From Taibaiella lutea (lineage in GTDB: Bacteria; Bacteroidota; Bacteroidia; Chitinophagales; Chitinophagaceae): a DNA stretch of 64,000 nucleotides. How positions within the stretch are numbered: the first letter of the stretch is position 1; every line of letters begins with the position of its first letter. A program made the translations under genes and the position numbers. This document shows positions 3,290-56,475 of the stretch, one piece after another. A model generated the notes under the pieces. The model did no database searches and was not told the origin of the DNA. It was given only the letters and a program-made list of their open reading frames with translations. The stretch spans positions 1,515,990 through 1,579,989 of the forward strand of contig NZ_VWSH01000001.1 of NCBI RefSeq assembly GCF_008629695.1, written 5' to 3'.

Positions 3290-5389
3290 CTATTCCTCCA
3301 GCAAATCTCCAAACTCATCTTCCGTTAAAACCTTTACAGTACCAAGCTTTTTAGCCTTTTCCAATTTGGAACCCGCATCAGCACCAACAATCAAATAATT
3401 CAACTTGCTGCTTACGCCACTTAACAATTTTCCGCCGCGCTCTTCAACCAGTGCTTCCGCATCACTGCGCTTGAATCTGGAAAGTGTGCCGGTAAACAGA
3501 AATGTTTTTCCACTCAAAGCACCGTTCTCCTGGTTCCCATCTTTTTTATGCTGATTGGTTAAAGTCAAACCAAGCACTTCCAGTTCATCCAGAATATGAA
3601 TGTTTTCATGTGCCTGAAAAAACTGATAAACAGAGCCGGCAACTTTCGGGCCTATATCTTCCAGGGTACAAAGTTGTTCAACAGTCCATGTCTGAAAATC
3701 CTTCAAATGATTTACCGCATTAGCTAAAGTCTTTGCCGTGGTTTCGCCTACATATCGAATTCCCAGACCAAATATCAAACGATTGAGCGGTTGTTGCTTT
3801 GATTTTTCAATGGCTACCTTTAAATTTTCAACGGATTTCGCCCCAAACTTTTCAAGTCCGTTTAATTGTTCGTAATCTATTTTATAAATCCCCGCTATAT
3901 CTTTTACAATGCCCATATCATGAAACCTGCGAATATTGGAATCTCCAAAACTGCGGATATCCATCGCATCTTTCGATGCAAAATGAATCAGTCTTTCTAC
4001 TACCTGTGCTTCGCAACTTACATTGATACAACGCCATGCAGCTTCACCTTCGGGCTTAAACAGTTCTTCTTTACAAACCGGGCAATGTGTAGGAAAAATA
4101 ATTTCCTCTTCCGTACCATTTCTTAATTCCGGATTGGATTTCACTATATAAGGAATAACATCTCCTGCACGTTCTACCAAAACGGTATCGCCAATCTTTA
4201 AATCTTTTTCTTTAATAACTTCTTCATTAAATAAAGATATACTACCAACAGTAACACCGCCAATAGGAACAGGTTCAATTTTGGCAACCGGTGTAATGCT
4301 TCCTGTCCTTCCTACCTGAAATTCCACGCGCAATAATTTACTGGAAGCTTGTCTGGCCTTGAATTTATAGGCAATAGCCCAACGCGGATGATGAGTGGTT
4401 TGACCTAATCTATCCTGCAATTCAAGGCTGTTCACTTTGATAACCATACCATCTATTTCAAATGGCAAATCGTCACGGTGCTGCTCAAAATCCAACACAT
4501 AATCAATTACTTCATCAATGGTTTTGCAACGTTTCATGTTTTTAACAGGAGAGTTGAAACCTATATTGTAAAGCCATTCCAACGTTCCGTAGTGCGTTTG
4601 CATAACTTCCGGGTCAGCAACATTATTTTCAGTAGTATGATAACTGACATGATAAAGAATGGCGCTCAATCCTCGTTTTGCAACTTCTCTGGGGTCTAAC
4701 ATACGCAAAGTTCCCGAGGCCGCGTTTCTTGGATTAGCAAGCGGGGCAAGGCCTTCGGCAATTCTTTGTTCATTATAGTTCTTAAAAGTGTCTTTAGGAA
4801 TTATTACTTCACCGCGGATTTCTAAAGATTGTATATGTTGTTTTGATAAAGCAGCCGATAAAGGAATGGATTTTATCTGTTTTACATTTGGTGTAATATC
4901 TTCACCCATTATACCATCACCACGCGTCGCGCCACGAACCAATTTATCATCTTCATAATATAATGAAATCCCTGCTCCATCATATTTTGGTTCGACTGTA
5001 TATTCAATTTCCGACTCCTTAGATGTTTCTCTGCAACGTTTATCCCATTCTCTTAAATCCTCTGCGTTATAAGAATTTTCCAGACTCAGCATCGGCACCA
5101 AATGCGATACCGAAGTAAATTGCTCGCTTAAGCCTTTTGCAATTCTCTGAGTTGGAGAATCTGCCGTAATTAAGTCCGGATGTGCATTTTCAAGTTCCTT
5201 TAATTGTTTGAATAAAGTATCATACTCCACATCGGCCAATACAGAATTGTCTTGAACATAATACTTCCAGTCATTGTAATTAATAACCGAACGCAACATA
5301 TCTAATTGCGTTTGTACGTCTTCATTTGAAGACTTCAATAATTCTTTTGCCCAAAGTGACAGGCGTTGTTCGTCTTCAGGTTGGTACAT
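3290..5389 (-). CDS. ligA: NAD-dependent DNA ligase LigA
   Basis: Seals nicks in replication and repair using NAD+. The 699 residues cover the full family architecture. Domain Ia has YYVQDNSVLADVEYD near 43-58. The adenylation domain has the LVPMLSLENS motif at 97-106 and the KYDG nucleophile motif with K135. An OB fold follows, then a four-cysteine zinc finger (CPVC...C...C) encoded near 4020-4090. Helix-hairpin-helix motifs come next, and a C-terminal BRCT domain (GKTFLFTGTLSRFKRSDAE, then LNYLIVG) covers roughly the last 75 residues. The ATG start agrees with usual length. It is flanked by spacers on both sides, so it is probably monocistronic. Confidence 0.97.
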   Translation of the reverse strand: MYQPEDEQRLSLWAKELLKSSNEDVQTQLDMLRSVINYNDWKYYVQDNSVLADVEYDTLFKQLKELENAHPDLITADSPTQRIAKGLSEQFTSVSHLVPMLSLENSYNAEDLREWDKRCRETSKESEIEYTVEPKYDGAGISLYYEDDKLVRGATRGDGIMGEDITPNVKQIKSIPLSAALSKQHIQSLEIRGEVIIPKDTFKNYNEQRIAEGLAPLANPRNAASGTLRMLDPREVAKRGLSAILYHVSYHTTENNVADPEVMQTHYGTLEWLYNIGFNSPVKNMKRCKTIDEVIDYVLDFEQHRDDLPFEIDGMVIKVNSLELQDRLGQTTHHPRWAIAYKFKARQASSKLLRVEFQVGRTGSITPVAKIEPVPIGGVTVGSISLFNEEVIKEKDLKIGDTVLVERAGDVIPYIVKSNPELRNGTEEEIIFPTHCPVCKEELFKPEGEAAWRCINVSCEAQVVERLIHFASKDAMDIRSFGDSNIRRFHDMGIVKDIAGIYKIDYEQLNGLEKFGAKSVENLKVAIEKSKQQPLNRLIFGLGIRYVGETTAKTLANAVNHLKDFQTWTVEQLCTLEDIGPKVAGSVYQFFQAHENIHILDELEVLGLTLTNQHKKDGNQENGALSGKTFLFTGTLSRFKRSDAEALVEERGGKLLSGVSSKLNYLIVGADAGSKLEKAKKLGTVKVLTEDEFGDLLEE

Positions 5390-49542: not shown

Positions 49543-50973
49543 TTAATATGCAGTGTTTTCAGCAGCCCAGTTTGTCCAGTTTGCAGTCCAGTCAGTTGAA
49601 CCGTCAAATGCACCAACATAAGTTGTAGTAGCAGTAAACATAGTAAGACCTGTAAAGCTTGCAGCACCCAATGCAGGAGAAGTAGAGCTTAACAAGAAGT
49701 TAGGACGACCTGCAGAAGCAGAAACGGCAGGAGAATATTTGAAAGGATCAACTAAACCCGCTTTATATGTACTATCCAGAATCTGGTTGTTATTAGCACC
49801 TACATAAGTTACCAAATCAGCCTGGAAAGAAGCTGTAGAAGCTTTAAGCGGAGTTGTGCAACCTGCAATGATGTTGTTTTTGAATTGCAATGTACCTGCA
49901 GTTAAATTACCTGAAGTAGATGTTCCTTTTGTATCATCGATATACAAACCATTAGGGTAACCCATAATGATAGAGTTGTAAATAGAGATAGAAGAGTTAC
50001 GACGGATTTGAGCTGCCCAAACGTAGTTAGCGTTGATTGCTGTATTCAGTTGCGCCATTGGCCCAACAATTGTCATGTTAGAGAAGTTAGCTTTAGTTTG
50101 CGGTGCGTTGGTAGAACCGTTTGCATCGTTATCAGACTCAAAGCTTTCAGATTTACTTTGGTCAGCGATGGTAGGAACACGCAAAGCAACACCAAATTGT
50201 ACGTTACCGGAGAAACCGTTATCTGTATCGAAATCATCATCCCATGTATAAGCAGCTACAAGGTGATCGCAGTTTACTGTACCGCCAAACCACTCGTAAG
50301 CATCATCACCGGAACGGTAAACTTCTACGTAGCTGATAGTAGTACCACTACCAACGCCACCCATTGTCAAACCGTTGATTTCATTATCAGGAGAATAAGC
50401 GATACCTGCAAATTCAATACGTACATATTTGATTATACCTGAGTTGTCAGCAGCGTTTGTACCACCAAACCAGATGTATTCTGTTTCTTTAGAAGCATCT
50501 GTTGGTACTAAACCACCTTCGATTCTTGCTGTACCACCTGTTGGATTGATTGGAGCGCTACCCAAGATGATAACACCACCCCAATCGGCTTCGCGACGTG
50601 CACCTGCAGGTTGGTTAGATGTAAAAATGATTGGTTTGTCAACAGTACCCTGAGCATCAATTTTACCGGTACGGGTAATAACCAAAGTTCCTTTGCTGGC
50701 TTTATCACCTTTGATGATAGTTCCTGCAGGGATTGTCAATGTTGCTCCGTCTTTTACATATACGAATCCTTGCAACAAATATTTTCTGTCAGCAGACAAA
50801 GTCATATTGGTTGTAATGTCGCCAGAAAGGATAATAACGGCGTTAGGATCAGTTGTGTCAGTTGTGTCAGTTGTGTCAACCGGTGGCGGAGGTACTACGA
50901 TAGGGTTCTTTTTGTCACAAGATGCCATATATAAGGCTATGGCGCCAAAGCTAAGCAGGACAAGCTTTTTCAT
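49543..50973 (-). CDS. Surface lipoprotein with right-handed beta-helix-like repeats
   Basis: 476 residues from the ATG at 50973; an earlier frame start at 51000 lies inside the promoter. The signal peptide has a lipobox (MASCDKK), then a PPPP...TDTTDTTD linker. The mature domain has SGDITTNMTLSADRKYLLQGFVYV, TLTIPAGTIIKGD, ADWGGVIILG, GGTNAADNSGIIKYVRIEFAG and SYVEVYRSGDDAYEWFGG, a parallel beta-helix pattern. I recognise this Bacteroidota protein type but know no function. It lies 160 bp after the TonB receptor stop, has its own promoter with three 11-bp-phased repeats, and is probably its surface partner. Confidence 0.82.
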   Translation of the reverse strand: MKKLVLLSFGAIALYMASCDKKNPIVVPPPPVDTTDTTDTTDPNAVIILSGDITTNMTLSADRKYLLQGFVYVKDGATLTIPAGTIIKGDKASKGTLVITRTGKIDAQGTVDKPIIFTSNQPAGARREADWGGVIILGSAPINPTGGTARIEGGLVPTDASKETEYIWFGGTNAADNSGIIKYVRIEFAGIAYSPDNEINGLTMGGVGSGTTISYVEVYRSGDDAYEWFGGTVNCDHLVAAYTWDDDFDTDNGFSGNVQFGVALRVPTIADQSKSESFESDNDANGSTNAPQTKANFSNMTIVGPMAQLNTAINANYVWAAQIRRNSSISIYNSIIMGYPNGLYIDDTKGTSTSGNLTAGTLQFKNNIIAGCTTPLKASTASFQADLVTYVGANNNQILDSTYKAGLVDPFKYSPAVSASAGRPNFLLSSTSPALGAASFTGLTMFTATTTYVGAFDGSTDWTANWTNWAAENTAY

Positions 50974-50997: not shown

Positions 50998-51044
50998 CAA
51001 AAGTAGCGGGCCATTGTTACCGAAATATTACGTCATTATTATGC
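50998..51044 (-). promoter_or_regulatory. Promoter of the lipoprotein gene with three 11-bp-phased operator repeats
   Basis: On the plus strand GTTACCG (51016), ATTACGT (51027) and ATTATGC (51038) start exactly 11 bp apart. On the minus strand, 10 bp downstream of the first, is TACTTTTG (51005 to 50998), a perfect -7 element 25 bp before the start codon. The layout, with repeats covering the -33 region, suits activation by a PhoB/OmpR-type response regulator. Confidence 0.65.
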
Positions 51045-51082
51045 CTGTATGAACATTTCAGATGGCTGAGGGGACAAAAACA

Positions 51083-51133: not shown

Positions 51134-53935
51134 TTAGAATTTCAAAGCGTAAGTCAGAGAAATAGTTCTTCCCGGTTTATACTGTTGATATATCATATCT
51201 TTTGTCGGGTCAATATTGCCATCAGCAGTCAGACCTGCACCTGAAAATTTCTTATCGTTATCCTGGTCAAAATAGAATACTATAGGATTATTGAAAAGGT
51301 CTTTCATGTTCAACCTGAATTCGCTGCGCTTGGTTACATTGTAGCTTATCTGCAGATCCATAAGGTTACGGGATCTTTCATATACGTGTCCTAAAGCATT
51401 ACCACCTACAAGATACAATCTCTGACCGATACGGTTATATAGCAAATTAAAGTTCAATTTACCGTTTAAGGCTGCATAGCTAAGACCACTGTTTATGGAA
51501 TAAGGCGCTTGTCCGGCCATCGGGCGGTCTGTAACCAGTTTGTTTGCAACAACTGAAATGGTATCATAAGTAACTTTAGACTGAATGATAGCAACATTGG
51601 TATAGAAAGTAACATCTTTCAGGAAAGATTTAGGTGCAATAAAGGCAAGGTTCTTCCTGATTTCAAATTCAAGCCCTGCATCATAAGCTTTCTGGAAGTT
51701 CTCAGGCTTAATTTCGTAGATACTGAATGCGTACACTTTATTTTCAATCTGCTGATCAAAGTTTTTATAGAAGACAGATGCGGATAGTACACCACCTTTT
51801 TCCATATACCACTCATATCTTAAGTCGAAGTTGTTGATATGTGTGCGTTGCAAAGCAGGGTTACCCAAAATGTTTGCAGACAATTCGTAATCATAGTAGC
51901 CTAAGTTAGTTAATTCACGCAATTCAGGACGGGCAAGGCTTCTGAAATAAGATGCTCTCAGGTTTGCCTGGTCGCTCAAGCTATATGTAAGGTTTACGGA
52001 AGGCAAGATGTCAGTCCATGTCTGGTCTGCTTCTGTTTTGTCAACGGAATTTACAACGATGTTGTATGATTCTAAACGTGCTCCCCATACAGCTCTGAAC
52101 TTATCTGTAAACTTATTGTCAATCATAGCATAACCACCCATTGTTTTTGCAGTTGCATCATAAGCATCTGCATTACCTGATTGATCCAAAAGTGTGTAAT
52201 AACCCTGGTCAATAGCATCTTGTCCGAATAAAGTACCTATTGGTCTTGCTTCAATATCAGCAGCACCCAATTTACTTTCATTCATTTGCAAGCCCAAATA
52301 GCGGTTGTTGAAACTACGTGTTCTGTACTGGCCAAATGCACCAATCTTAATGCTGGTCTTTTTAAATAAAGAAACAGGTTGAATATAATTAAGAGCAGCG
52401 TTAACTACACTCTCATTCATATCACTGAATAATCTGTTGTTTGATTTACCGATTGAAGATAGTTGTGCAATATATTGCTGGCTGATATCATCGTATGAGT
52501 ATGCTACTTTACGTTGATCGGGTTGATTATTATTAATATAGTTGTAAGATACTAACCAATCAATTTTGGCATCTTTTTTACCTATTGAGTGTGTTCCGTC
52601 CAATGAAGCCTTAAATAAGGATTTTTGAATCAGGTCATAAGCATAATATCTTATATCGGAAGAGTTACTGTTGTTAGTACCTTCACGATAAAGGAAGTTG
52701 TCGTCAAAATTGCGGTTGTAAAGTGTTTTCAGATTAAACTTGCTTTTACCTACGTAATAACCAAGGTTCAATAAACCACCAAGATTTGTAGAATACACAT
52801 AGTTATTGTCTGTATAATTATAATCACCGTATTGACGCAAAAGGTTTGGTTTAATGTTTTCGCTATGATTATAGGTCACTGCTGCGGTAACACCAAAACG
52901 ACTATTGCCCTTCAGGTTATACAAACGTCCTACAGAACCCTGCAGATTTATCTGAGGTAATGCACTGTGTTCGCGAACGCCATAATCATTGTTCAATGCA
53001 TTGATGTAAGGAATGGAACCTTTTCCCGGATCAGGATAGGTAGATAAAGTCTGAAGACTTTGAGATGTCGGAAAATAAGGACTCAACTGACGTTTACCGT
53101 TATCAAAACCTAAGAAATCGGTTGGAGAACGATAGCCTGACTGGAATTTTTTGAAAGTAGATGCGGTGTTTATACCGGTACCGATAGAGAAATTGTTGAA
53201 ATTCTCTTCAGGAACTTCTTTGGTAAGGATATTTATGGCGCCGCCTGCAAAATCTCCCGGCAAATCAGGGGTAGCTGCTTTTGTGATGATGATATTATCA
53301 ATCATGTTAGCAGGAATGATATCGAATGAGAAGGCCTTACGGTTAGGCTCCGTACTTGGCAAAGGCGCACCGTCAACCATTGCTGTATTGTAACGGTCAC
53401 TCATACCGCGAATTACCACAAATTTATTATCGACAATTGTTGTTCCGCTGATTCTTTTCAATACATCACCTGTACTGCGGTCAGGAGATTTCCTAATAAC
53501 GTCTGCAGAGATACCGTCGGATACGGCAACTGCATTTTTTTGCATGGTATAAAGTGCACTTACCGATTCCTTCTTCATAGAAGACTGGATTACAACTTCT
53601 TCCAGGTCGGTGCTTGCTTTATCGCTCATGGTAATATCCATTTTGGTATTCTTACCATTTACTACAACGATTTCGGTTACTCTTTGTGTCTGAAACCCCA
53701 TGTACTTTACTTCGATTTCATAAGTGCCTGCTTCGGCTTCGAAGACATAGTGTCCGTCCACATCTGTTATAGCGCTTAACAACGGGATGTCGGCGCCTTC
53801 TTTAAATAAAGAAACAGTCACACCAATGAGTGTTTCTGCAGTAGTACTGTCCGTGACGGTACCCTGAATATTTCCATTTGCAAATGCCTGTGCAGTAATG
53901 ACTAAGCACAGAATAAGAGAGAATAACTTACGCAT
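51134..53935 (-). CDS. TonB-dependent outer-membrane receptor with CarboxypepD_reg domain
   Basis: 933 residues from the ATG at 53935 (signal peptide MRKLFSLILCLVITAQAFA); the frame continues to 53986 but that part overlaps the promoter repeats. An N-terminal CarboxypepD_reg-like domain (GTVTDSTTAETLIGVTVSLF) is followed by a plug (SVSALYTMQKNAVAVSDGI, then VVIRGMSDRYNTAMVDGAPLPSTEPNRKAFSFD) and a 22-strand-type barrel ending TISLTYALKF. Energised uptake across the outer membrane is expected. The substrate is not given by sequence. Context (divergent PhoU-like/Pit genes, phased operator) suggests phosphate or a phosphorylated compound. Confidence 0.92.
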   Translation of the reverse strand: MRKLFSLILCLVITAQAFANGNIQGTVTDSTTAETLIGVTVSLFKEGADIPLLSAITDVDGHYVFEAEAGTYEIEVKYMGFQTQRVTEIVVVNGKNTKMDITMSDKASTDLEEVVIQSSMKKESVSALYTMQKNAVAVSDGISADVIRKSPDRSTGDVLKRISGTTIVDNKFVVIRGMSDRYNTAMVDGAPLPSTEPNRKAFSFDIIPANMIDNIIITKAATPDLPGDFAGGAINILTKEVPEENFNNFSIGTGINTASTFKKFQSGYRSPTDFLGFDNGKRQLSPYFPTSQSLQTLSTYPDPGKGSIPYINALNNDYGVREHSALPQINLQGSVGRLYNLKGNSRFGVTAAVTYNHSENIKPNLLRQYGDYNYTDNNYVYSTNLGGLLNLGYYVGKSKFNLKTLYNRNFDDNFLYREGTNNSNSSDIRYYAYDLIQKSLFKASLDGTHSIGKKDAKIDWLVSYNYINNNQPDQRKVAYSYDDISQQYIAQLSSIGKSNNRLFSDMNESVVNAALNYIQPVSLFKKTSIKIGAFGQYRTRSFNNRYLGLQMNESKLGAADIEARPIGTLFGQDAIDQGYYTLLDQSGNADAYDATAKTMGGYAMIDNKFTDKFRAVWGARLESYNIVVNSVDKTEADQTWTDILPSVNLTYSLSDQANLRASYFRSLARPELRELTNLGYYDYELSANILGNPALQRTHINNFDLRYEWYMEKGGVLSASVFYKNFDQQIENKVYAFSIYEIKPENFQKAYDAGLEFEIRKNLAFIAPKSFLKDVTFYTNVAIIQSKVTYDTISVVANKLVTDRPMAGQAPYSINSGLSYAALNGKLNFNLLYNRIGQRLYLVGGNALGHVYERSRNLMDLQISYNVTKRSEFRLNMKDLFNNPIVFYFDQDNDKKFSGAGLTADGNIDPTKDMIYQQYKPGRTISLTYALKF

Positions 53936-53960
53936 AACTATGTTATATAGAATTTGAGTG

Positions 53961-54040
53961 CAAAAGTCGACTCTCAATATTACCACAGCATTAGCTGTAT
54001 GTTACGACTGAGTTACCTTAATGTTACGTAAATATTAACA
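53961..54040 (-). promoter_or_regulatory. Receptor promoter with six 11-bp-phased operator repeats
   Basis: On the plus strand, 7-mers begin every 11 bp: ATTACCA (53979), ATTAGCT (53990), GTTACGA (54001), GTTACCT (54012), GTTACGT (54023) and ATTAACA (54034). All fit RTTA and four fit RTTAC. On the minus strand, 10 bp after the first repeat, is GACTTTTG (53968 to 53961), a one-mismatch -7 element 26 bp before the receptor ATG. The same 10-bp spacing is found at the lipoprotein promoter. A small inverted repeat, ACAGC-ATTA-GCTGT (53985-53998), overlaps the array. Confidence 0.7.
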
Positions 54041-54300
54041 GGCGTAATAATGAAGCCAATATGTAATATTTAAATTTACCTGACAATCTGATGCTGTTTA
54101 CAGGTAAAAGTTTTGAAGACAACCGGTGGTTTTAACCATTATATCTTGCTAAAAAATGGTATAAATTATTGATTTACAATGGGATTATTTTTACAACATT
54201 TCAACGTTATCAAATTATTAAGAATTGCCAAAACAAGTAATTTGCGGTGCAGGAAAGGTAATTTTGCGGCCAATTATAATAATGTATTAACTAAGACTTT
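54041..54300. other. Divergent spacer with candidate promoter for the PhoU-like/Pit genes
   Basis: TAATTTTG at 54259-54266 is a perfect -7 match, 34 bp before the DUF47 start. A near-repeat, GTAATTTGCGG at 54237 and GTAATTTTGCGG at 54258, overlaps it. An inverted repeat, TTTACCTG (54075-54082) and CAGGTAAA (54101-54108), lies farther up. I found no 11-bp array at proper spacing to this promoter. Confidence 0.4.
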
Positions 54301-54948
54301 ATGGGTTTAAATTCCATTATCAAAATCTTCCTTCCAAAGGACAAAGTATTTTATAGCATTTTTGAACAGATGGGCGCCAATCTTATTGAGATGGGAGGAG
54401 CTTTCAGGACAGCTATTGAAGAAGAAAATCCGACAAAACGTACTCAACTGTTGCGTGCGTTAGAAGATTTGGAACATAAAAATGATGAGTTGACCCATAA
54501 GATTTTTGTTGAATTAGGTCAGAATTTCATTACTCCGTTTGATCGTGAAGATATCCATTACCTGGCAACTTCTTTAGATGATGTGGCTGACTTCATTTAT
54601 GCTTCTTCCAAAAAAATAGTGAACTATCAGGTTAAGGAAGTAGATCAATATATGAAGGATATGGTAATTGTTATTCAAAATGCCATTAAGTCTCTGGCGA
54701 AAGCTTTGCATGAGTTACGTAATATGAAAAACCTTCATGCTATTACCGAAGCCTGCGTTCAGATCAACAGCCTGGAAAATCAGGCGGATGATCTTTTGGA
54801 TGATGCGATTATAAGATTATTTGCCAGTAATATAGATGCCATTGAATTGGTTAAACTTAAGGATATTTATCAGGACATGGAGGTTATTACAGACAAGTGC
54901 GAAGATGCGGCGAATGTAATTGAATCCATCATTATTAAATATGCTTAA
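54301..54948 (+). CDS. DUF47/PhoU-like phosphate transport regulator
   Basis: 215 residues, all helical, with the DUF47 pattern: LPKDKVFYSIFEQMGANLIEMG at the start, EDLEHKNDELTHKIFVELGQNFITPFDREDIHYLATSLDDVADFIY in the middle, and SLENQADDLLDDAIIRLF and EVITDKCEDAANVIESIIIKYA at the end. Acidic clusters (ExxxD, DD) could bind metal as in PhoU. Members are encoded next to Pit transporters, as here (63 bp before the Pit gene), and are thought to control them. It is cytoplasmic, and the two are probably one transcript. Confidence 0.92.
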   Translation: MGLNSIIKIFLPKDKVFYSIFEQMGANLIEMGGAFRTAIEEENPTKRTQLLRALEDLEHKNDELTHKIFVELGQNFITPFDREDIHYLATSLDDVADFIYASSKKIVNYQVKEVDQYMKDMVIVIQNAIKSLAKALHELRNMKNLHAITEACVQINSLENQADDLLDDAIIRLFASNIDAIELVKLKDIYQDMEVITDKCEDAANVIESIIIKYA

Positions 54949-55011: not shown

Positions 55012-56475
55012 ATGAGTTTACTACTAATTATCATTATCATACTGGCTCTGATATTTGACTACATCAATGGTTTTCATGATGCAGCCAACTCCATTGCCAC
55101 GATAGTTTCCACTAAAGTACTTACACCTTTTCAGGCGGTACTCTGGGCGGCATTATTCAATTTTGTTGCGTTCTTTATCTTTAAGGATCATGGCGTTGCC
55201 AATACTATTGCAAAAACGGTAAAAGAAGGGCAAGATGCCGCAGGCGTTCCTTTCATTACATTAACGGTTATTTGTGCGGGCCTTATTGCATCTATTGTAT
55301 GGAACCTCATCACATGGTGGTTTGGTATTCCTTCCAGTTCCTCTCATACCTTAATCGGAGGCTTTGCAGGCGCGGCTATTGCCCATGCAGGTTTCGGAGC
55401 TATTGAAGTTGGTACTATTATTAAAATTACCAGTTTTATTTTCCTTGCACCGCTGATTGGGTTAATCATGGCATTTATTATTTCGGTCTGGTTCCTCAAT
55501 TCTTTCCGTAAAAGTATTCTGCCAAAAATCGTTTCCGTTCTTGTTATTGCCGGCTCCCTGTTTATGATTTCGCAATGCCTTGAAACAAGTACTTCTAAAA
55601 TCCTCGGTGTTAAAAAAACCGAGAAATCTGAAAAAGGTCTTGTAATCAAAGACGTGGTGAATAAGACGCCTGCTCAGGTTATGGGCCTGAAGAAAGATGA
55701 TATTGTTACCAATATCAATCCGGTAAATGTAATTAATGAAAGAACGCTGGATGCAGCTTTTAATTATCACAAGCAAGATGAGGCCATTGTGATTAATGTA
55801 ATAAGAGATGGTAAACCGGTACAACTCGAAACGACTTACCAACCGCGATTCGCATCGAGGACAATAAGCATGCTTGTGTTTGGGGAGAATGTAAAATGGT
55901 TATTGATTGCATTTATCGCTACTGCGATGGCTATATTCTCCTTATTTTTCAGCATTATGAATTATGCCCAGAGCGAACGCTGGTTCAAACGTATGCAATT
56001 AGTTTCTTCTGCAGCATTCAGTATCGGGCATGGTGGTAACGATTCTCAAAAGGTAATGGGTATCATTACGGTGGCTTTGATTGCCGGCGGACAAATTAAT
56101 AATTTTGAAGCAATGCCTACATGGGTTCCCCTGGCATGTTATACTGTTATTGCATTGGGAACAATGAGTGGTGGATGGAAAATCATTAAAACAATGGGAA
56201 CGCGTATTACTAAAGTTACACCGTTTGAGGGCGTAGCAGCAGAAACAGCAGGAGCTTTGACATTATTCATTACCGAAATGCTGAAAATACCTGTTAGTAC
56301 TACACATACCATTACCGGTTCCATTATTGGTGTTGGGGCCACTAAAAGGCTTTCTGCTGTAAGATGGGGTGTTACTATCAATTTACTTTGGGCCTGGATT
56401 ATTACAATTCCGATAAGTGCGTTGATGGCAGCTCTGGTTTACTGGGTATTGAAATTAACAGGTGTAGGCGTATAA
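55012..56475 (+). CDS. Pit-family phosphate transporter with an inserted PDZ-like domain
   Basis: 487 residues. Each half of the inverted-repeat carrier has its signature: GFHDAANSIATIVSTKVLTP (about 20-39) and GHGGNDSQKVMGII (about 342-355). PSSSSHTLIGG (residues about 107-117) and PVSTTHTITGSIIG (second half) are also typical. Between them, at about 205-280, lies a soluble segment of about 75 residues with KGLVIKDVVNKTPAQVMGLKKDDIVTNIN, then AIVINVIRDGKPVQLETTY. This is the GLGF-like PDZ layout of HtrA-type PDZ domains. Such an insert is not part of the standard Pit fold. It may sense or tether a partner. It may be cytoplasmic, like the large central loop of Pit proteins, but the side is uncertain. 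Confidence 0.9.
   Translation: MSLLLIIIIILALIFDYINGFHDAANSIATIVSTKVLTPFQAVLWAALFNFVAFFIFKDHGVANTIAKTVKEGQDAAGVPFITLTVICAGLIASIVWNLITWWFGIPSSSSHTLIGGFAGAAIAHAGFGAIEVGTIIKITSFIFLAPLIGLIMAFIISVWFLNSFRKSILPKIVSVLVIAGSLFMISQCLETSTSKILGVKKTEKSEKGLVIKDVVNKTPAQVMGLKKDDIVTNINPVNVINERTLDAAFNYHKQDEAIVINVIRDGKPVQLETTYQPRFASRTISMLVFGENVKWLLIAFIATAMAIFSLFFSIMNYAQSERWFKRMQLVSSAAFSIGHGGNDSQKVMGIITVALIAGGQINNFEAMPTWVPLACYTVIALGTMSGGWKIIKTMGTRITKVTPFEGVAAETAGALTLFITEMLKIPVSTTHTITGSIIGVGATKRLSAVRWGVTINLLWAWIITIPISALMAALVYWVLKLTGVGV

Follow-up and report, generated by a model that had tools for sequence, protein, structure and literature searches.

The PhoP box of Bacillus subtilis is composed of TTAACA-type repeats and, by this consensus, has in common with the arrays described below an 11-bp phase and a TTAACA-like core, while the phylum and the type of promoter differ. 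For the Bacteroidota, to which Riemerella anatipestifer belongs, no definition of a tandem Pho box was found in the open literature, most subscription papers lying outside the search. In Escherichia coli the Pho box is likewise made of tandem 11-nt direct repeats, bound head to tail by the OmpR-family regulator PhoB, and is defined as two units with the core CTGTCAT (PMC4415409). The PhoP protein of R. anatipestifer is raised in phosphate starvation, and its DAP-seq motif has the published core TTTAACA, which the authors liken to ArcA; compared by this core, it shares the TTAACA-like core of the arrays, which means that such a core was already published for the phylum, and the accessible part of the paper mentions neither an 11-bp register nor a distance to a -7 box (PMC9603813). 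In Bacteroides fragilis, that is, in the same phylum, PhoB binds a phosphate promoter, that of pstC, in EMSA with a 512-bp fragment, the box sequence not being given in the accessible text (PMC3547664).

A functional parallel is found in Flavobacterium johnsoniae, where Pi depletion induces a TonB receptor (Fjoh_0545, fold change 8.02) and an FII lipoprotein (Fjoh_0546, 9.91) situated beside phoBR, as well as phoB (3.06) and the glycosyltransferase Fjoh_0541 (5.42); the PhoX-like Fjoh_2478 ranks with the most strongly induced genes, and the OprP gene Fjoh_0542 is not induced (-1.3, not significant) (PMC8115612). That study reports no promoter motif, the terms "promoter" and "pho box" occurring 0 times in its main text (PMC8115612).

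The locus under study belongs to Taibaiella lutea and lies in a stretch of 64,000 nucleotides, below called the window. It comprises the following features.

53973-54038, minus strand: six-unit array of 11-bp direct repeats, core (G/T/C)TAA(C/T), supported by pattern, Markov control and congeners
54028-54038, 54017-54027, 54006-54016, 53995-54005, 53984-53994, 53973-53983, minus strand: the six units of this array
53961-53968, minus strand: -7 promoter box GACTTTTG, 10 bases after the last core
51134-53935, minus strand: TonB-dependent receptor, 933 aa (Pfam PF00593, PF07715, PF13620, PF13715)
51043-51053, minus strand: degenerate TTCAT unit beside the second array
51010-51042, minus strand: second array, three units (ATAAT, GTAAT, GTAAC), also the top match genome-wide of the promoter model R1 described below (E 3.6e-8)
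50998-51005, minus strand: perfect -7 box TACTTTTG of the lipoprotein promoter, again with a 10-base gap
49543-50973, minus strand: lipoprotein-like protein, 476 aa, relative of the F. johnsoniae FII type (lipobox by eye)
54259-54266, plus strand: TAATTTTG, which probably serves the phoU-like/PiT pair as -7 box
54301-54948, plus strand: PhoU-like DUF47 protein (PF01865), divergent neighbour of the receptor
55012-56475, plus strand: PiT-type phosphate transporter with a PDZ insertion (PF01384 and PF13180)

An earlier note on this DNA had described six seven-base words matching RTTA in exact 11-bp phase, ending cleanly on both sides, and every position holds: the cores start at 53979, 53990, 54001, 54012, 54023 and 54034, while the in-phase positions 53968 and 54045 do not match. 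Read on the minus strand, the array runs TTAATATTTAC GTAACATTAAG GTAACTCAGTC GTAACATACAG CTAATGCTGTG GTAATATTGAG, and ten bases past the last GTAAT stands the box at 53968-53961 with one mismatch to TAnnTTTG, which agrees with the distance given in the note. Its count of nine repeats in the window is also correct, the remaining three being the units ATAATAATGAC GTAATATTTCG GTAACAATGGC before the lipoprotein gene, where the -7 box again follows ten bases past the last core. The ATG of the receptor is at 53935; as the Bacteroidota -7 box was mapped at -12 to -5 in F. psychrophilum (PMC9723704), the receptor transcript is predicted by analogy to start near 53956 with a leader of about 21 bases.

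AT-rich intergenic DNA is rich in TTA words, which might suggest that such a series arises by chance or from low-complexity sequence. Against this explanation, the array is the sole RTTA run longer than three in the window (periods 9-12, both strands), and a six-run at one period on both strands is expected 4.6e-7 times. Among 100 dinucleotide-Markov simulated windows, scanned at five periods on two strands, the longest RTTA run was 4 (reached in 4 of 100) and the longest run of the looser word TTA was 5 (in 2 of 100), none being longer. The array is also repeated at the next gene and kept in both congeners examined, in which six units stand in register, five with TAA cores and one with TTTAC, and in which the gene order is common, the receptor and lipoprotein being divergent from phoU-like and PiT genes. 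Between the own array and that of either congener 25 of 30 core positions are identical compared with 18 of 36 spacer positions, and thus across the two congeners the cores are better conserved than the spacers. With the own-genome scan given below contradicting it as well, chance has a practically negligible probability, and the receptor array is almost certainly a real operator.

The geometry was followed through genomes of the same family. The pattern GTAAY-6-GTAAY-10-TANNTTTG gave 28 matches in 294 family genomes, spread over 26 of them, compared with 7 for the reversed pattern. Downstream there are 17 TonB-receptor N-termini (4 Pfam-scanned, the others by eye), 4 lipoproteins of the window-lipoprotein family, one being the window's own, a single PstS with permease- and ATPase-like genes behind it, a PF04185 phosphoesterase, two SdiA-regulated/phytase-like proteins (one scanned) and one unknown protein; two matches from one genus have no clear gene, one of them about 1.4 kb from phoB. 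From 73 units, of which 28 had GTAAY forced by the search and 45 more were picked for TAA, the consensus on the minus strand is (G/T)TAAYATTNNN, with G in 46 and T in 21 units at the first place and C in 42 and T in 30 at the fifth, while the three positions after the core, unspecified in any search, carry A in 51, T in 40 and T in 53. The statement that the core differs from CTGTCAT of E. coli is thereby borne out; the arrays seen here also have two to six units instead of two, and their partner box is TAnnTTTG.

Three GTAAY units searched with no promoter criterion gave 77 matches in 147 genomes versus 42 for the reversed control, a mild enrichment. Loci were available for 30 of these matches; 12 of them carry TTTG at exactly offset 41, and no other offset from 30 to 69 has it in more than 2; the 10-bp gap between the array and the -7 box is fixed. 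Genes after these matches include PhoX (PF05787) and, in one case, a purple acid phosphatase, where no TTTG is present at offset 41. Upstream regions of PhoX-like genes, with one representative per genus, 25 of 30 loci scored and several of the top scorers being weak PF05787 matches, exceed a score of 10 in 6 of 25 cases (5 of 23 distinct, two genes being counted twice) versus 0 of 19 others. Lipoprotein loci beside the congener test gave a scorable upstream region in 8 of 30 cases, and 4 of the 8 exceed 10. None of 29 upstream regions of PF12849 genes in relatives does so (29 of 30 loci scored); PF12849 was dropped as a probe for pstS, since by eye it is mostly a non-Pst binding protein, with any true pstS genes pooled among the 29. 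The expectation of arrays before phosphate genes thus stood in relatives for PhoX, purple acid phosphatase, PstS, PF04185 and phytase-like genes, and it did not for PF12849 or for the PhoX-like gene of Flavobacterium limi, whose upstream region scores a weak 5.0.

Two further arrays were noticed. At locus L360 (about 3940-4010, minus strand) the six near-perfect units GTAACATTAAA GTAATATTCAC GTAACATTAAG GTAATAATGAC GTAACATTAAC TTAACATTGCG precede a 242-aa protein of unknown kind, and at L359 (2801-2850) four phased units, 128-150 bases from a downstream gene judged by eye to be replicative helicase-like, lack a -7 box at the standard distance.

The genome scan proposed in the earlier note was largely run with R1, a sequence-only model of repeats and -7 box built from a gap-free alignment of 25 of the 28 promoters found by the pattern above. 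None of the 25 is from the own genome, whose promoter was left out; of the 27 others, two were omitted because they lack an upstream TAA unit. In the 4.27-Mb genome 150 of 3296 first-look candidates were scored, so that the list may be incomplete. It holds at least 12 matches, of which seven, representing six places, are as follows. Among the matches listed the lipoprotein promoter ranks first, the promoter of an S1/P1 nuclease (PF02265; C4:169592) second (E 3.5e-4), the window receptor third (E 0.012), phoB fourth (E 0.11), a second TonB receptor fifth (E 0.26), a phytase-like gene (PF13449; C2:418566) ninth and the lower half of the window receptor array tenth; before the other five listed no phosphate gene was recognised by eye. 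Phosphate-scavenging genes and phoB are thus picked among the matches listed. Within the window, filters off, the three best matches are the two arrays and the next has E 0.62. The nuclease promoter (C4:169592-169633) has by eye two units, a gap of 10 and a -7 box with one mismatch, and the phytase-like promoter (C2:418566-418589) has units in phase, one degenerate, and a perfect -7 box; these two genes are likely further members of the regulon of the window receptor. A pattern search, not R1, also found the array geometry, with one -7 mismatch, at C2:358022 before a protein that combines a Lamin-tail domain and a type IX sorting tail.

Loose patterns gave no enrichment in the own genome: four TAAY units with one mismatch yielded 10 matches versus 14 in controls, and a pair of units combined with the -7 box yielded 37 versus 38 when one mismatch was allowed and 2 versus 3 when the gap could vary, one of the 2 being the lipoprotein promoter. 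As sole detector such patterns were abandoned, being useless alone. At C1:1353490-1353529 a phased array was observed 181 bases before a second TonB receptor, but a -7 box is missing from its customary place.

In the foreign-matrix test a weight matrix from the window's family was applied to 79 named loci of other lineages, where the scoring was confined to loci in which a lipoprotein ORF was recognised, to upstream regions of at least 150 bases and to genes with gaps of at least 80 bases. The 65 receptor promoters, which belong to related species and cannot count as independent, and whose receptors were labelled by length and place instead of Pfam, have a median of 11.4 at period 11 versus -5.9 to -1.4 at periods 9, 10, 12, 13 and 14. 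The median is 6.9 for the 40 lipoprotein promoters, -1.6 for the regions before 35 further response regulator genes and -6.9 for the 461 other upstream regions, only 18 of the last exceeding 15; a score above 5 is reached by 59 of the 65 receptor promoters versus 65 of the 461 other regions. Of the TTTGC words in regions scoring at least 8, those phased as expected number 38 of 41 before receptors, 10 of 11 before lipoproteins and 12 of 18 before other genes. A divergent response regulator gene lies within 900 bp in 41 of the 65 receptor loci, and receptor promoters with and without a scored regulator gene have equal medians (11.4, n=35, and 11.2, n=30). The 11-bp phase and the 10-bp gap are kept upstream of receptors in other families, often beside a response regulator.

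R1 itself, run over 70 of the 79 loci, gave 32 matches up to E 10, labelled as 20 TonB-dependent receptors, 5 glycosyltransferases, 1 lipoprotein and 6 other or none; of the 20 receptor-labelled matches L179 and L184 contribute two each, and that of L212 (9685-9723) stands by eye before a PiT transporter. In three Flavobacterium genomes R1 found nothing significant (best E 0.119, 150 candidates scored per genome). The Flavobacterium unit is looser, e.g., ATAAC, CTAAC and TTTAC, with TTTCTTTG. The promoters of F. johnsoniae were judged via relatives, as this species is not among the 79 loci. In F. limi the row of a Porin_O_P gene, histidine kinase, PhoB-type regulator, receptor and lipoprotein corresponds to the order of Fjoh_0542-0546 (PMC8115612), the window receptor and lipoprotein being distant relatives of the F. 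limi proteins (26% and 36% identity). Some of the top-scoring other regions lead into Porin_O_P-like genes or the cluster's glycosyltransferase gene, and strong arrays are carried by Porin_O_P orthologues of Fjoh_0542. At L154, L158 and other Flavobacterium loci the best non-receptor arrays were noticed before Porin_O_P-like genes.

As the array abuts the -7 box at a fixed distance and its region is 70% A+T, the repeats might, instead of being an operator, belong to the basic promoter as an upstream element that is curved or AT-rich. This is very improbable: the adjoining phoU-like/PiT promoter has a good -7 box with no phased array before it, R1 giving only 3.2 bits there, the 461 other regions score as low as reported above, and the core is a defined GTAAY instead of an A-tract. 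The same observation qualifies the claim that the repeats are the Pho box of the lineage, which is supported by the genes that the arrays accompany and not by the adjacent pair: the phosphate genes next door, which had suggested the idea, carry no array and stand outside the switch. As side observations, the PDZ domain of the window PiT transporter sits inside its PHO4 domain, and the transporters of the two congeners are similarly long (481 and 482 aa).

A candidate regulator is available. The own phoB (C1:260645-261313) is the sole match below 1e-40 to the response regulator adjoining a histidine kinase at locus L144, with 53% identity, and encodes an OmpR-type regulator (PF00072 and PF00486); its promoter reads GTAACAATTTC GTAATGTTAAC + TAATTTTGC, where two units are clear and the gap exceeds the usual one by a single base. 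The lipoprotein beside phoB at L144 shares 36% identity over 298 residues with that of the window. Since 11-bp direct repeats suit any OmpR/PhoB-type regulator, a different member of this family, serving for example outer-membrane receptors or envelope stress, might bind the arrays, with a secondary link to phosphate; the high share of TonB receptors among the promoter-pattern matches (17 of 28), the arrays of OprP orthologues with no Pi induction in F. johnsoniae (PMC8115612) and the targets of Riemerella PhoP with no obvious phosphate role (PMC9603813) are in its favour. Still we consider it improbable, because the recognised non-receptor targets include PhoX, purple acid phosphatase, PstS, S1/P1 nuclease and phytase-like genes, phoB carries an array itself, and response regulators are divergent neighbours of so many receptors.

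The repeats are most probably the Pho box of the lineage of T. lutea, and the receptor array is very probably a landing site of PhoB. This assignment draws on the arrays, their phase and gap, their conservation, their company genome-wide and their co-location with response regulator genes in other families; 11-bp tandem repeats at a set promoter distance, phosphate-acquisition genes downstream and a PhoB orthologue in the genome are all present. The induction of the homologous F. johnsoniae pair beside phoBR on Pi depletion (PMC8115612) speaks for it too. Against it weigh the PF12849 result, the low score of F. limi PhoX, the three Flavobacterium genomes without a significant R1 match, the OprP arrays without induction, the unenriched loose patterns, the mild enrichment of three repeats alone, the irregular promoter of phoB, the low median of the other response regulator genes and the relatedness of the 65 receptor promoters.

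In the proposed mechanism for T. lutea low phosphate would lead the sensor kinase PhoR to phosphorylate PhoB, which would bind the (G/T)TAAYATTNNN repeats head to tail on one helix face. As the last unit, 10 bp before the Bacteroidota -7 box, occupies the place of a -33 element, bound PhoB may recruit the main sigma factor and RNA polymerase; the polymerase would then turn on the receptor gene as a response to phosphate, and the lipoprotein gene would use its own copy of the switch. The system is of a known kind; its core, the length of its arrays and their fixed distance to the Bacteroidota -7 box mark it as a lineage variant.

By extension, a general Bacteroidota Pho box may be proposed, with 2-6 (G/T)TAAYATTNNN units locked 10 bp from TAnnTTTG, the number and quality of units setting the strength of the starvation response, and with a TonB receptor and a beta-helix lipoprotein as the commonest members of the regulon, forming an organic-phosphorus uptake route absent from textbook Pho regulons; as one joint claim this is only slightly favoured. 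A consensus with a fixed -7 distance would make the phosphate regulon of a major phylum of soil, sea and gut readable from sequence, including the control of phosphate-scavenging genes, as a like switch also precedes them. It would also give a testable role, phosphate starvation, to a large receptor and lipoprotein family of unknown function.

The window lipoprotein-like protein has no Pfam match, and a beta-helix fold is putatively assigned to it because Fjoh_0546 bears the label IPR011050. Of 247 genomes sampled from the phylum, 162 have a member of its family (E 1e-20), and in two places (G506:C12 and G490:C15) single ORFs of about 2320 aa were observed with four tandem matches to the lipoprotein model.
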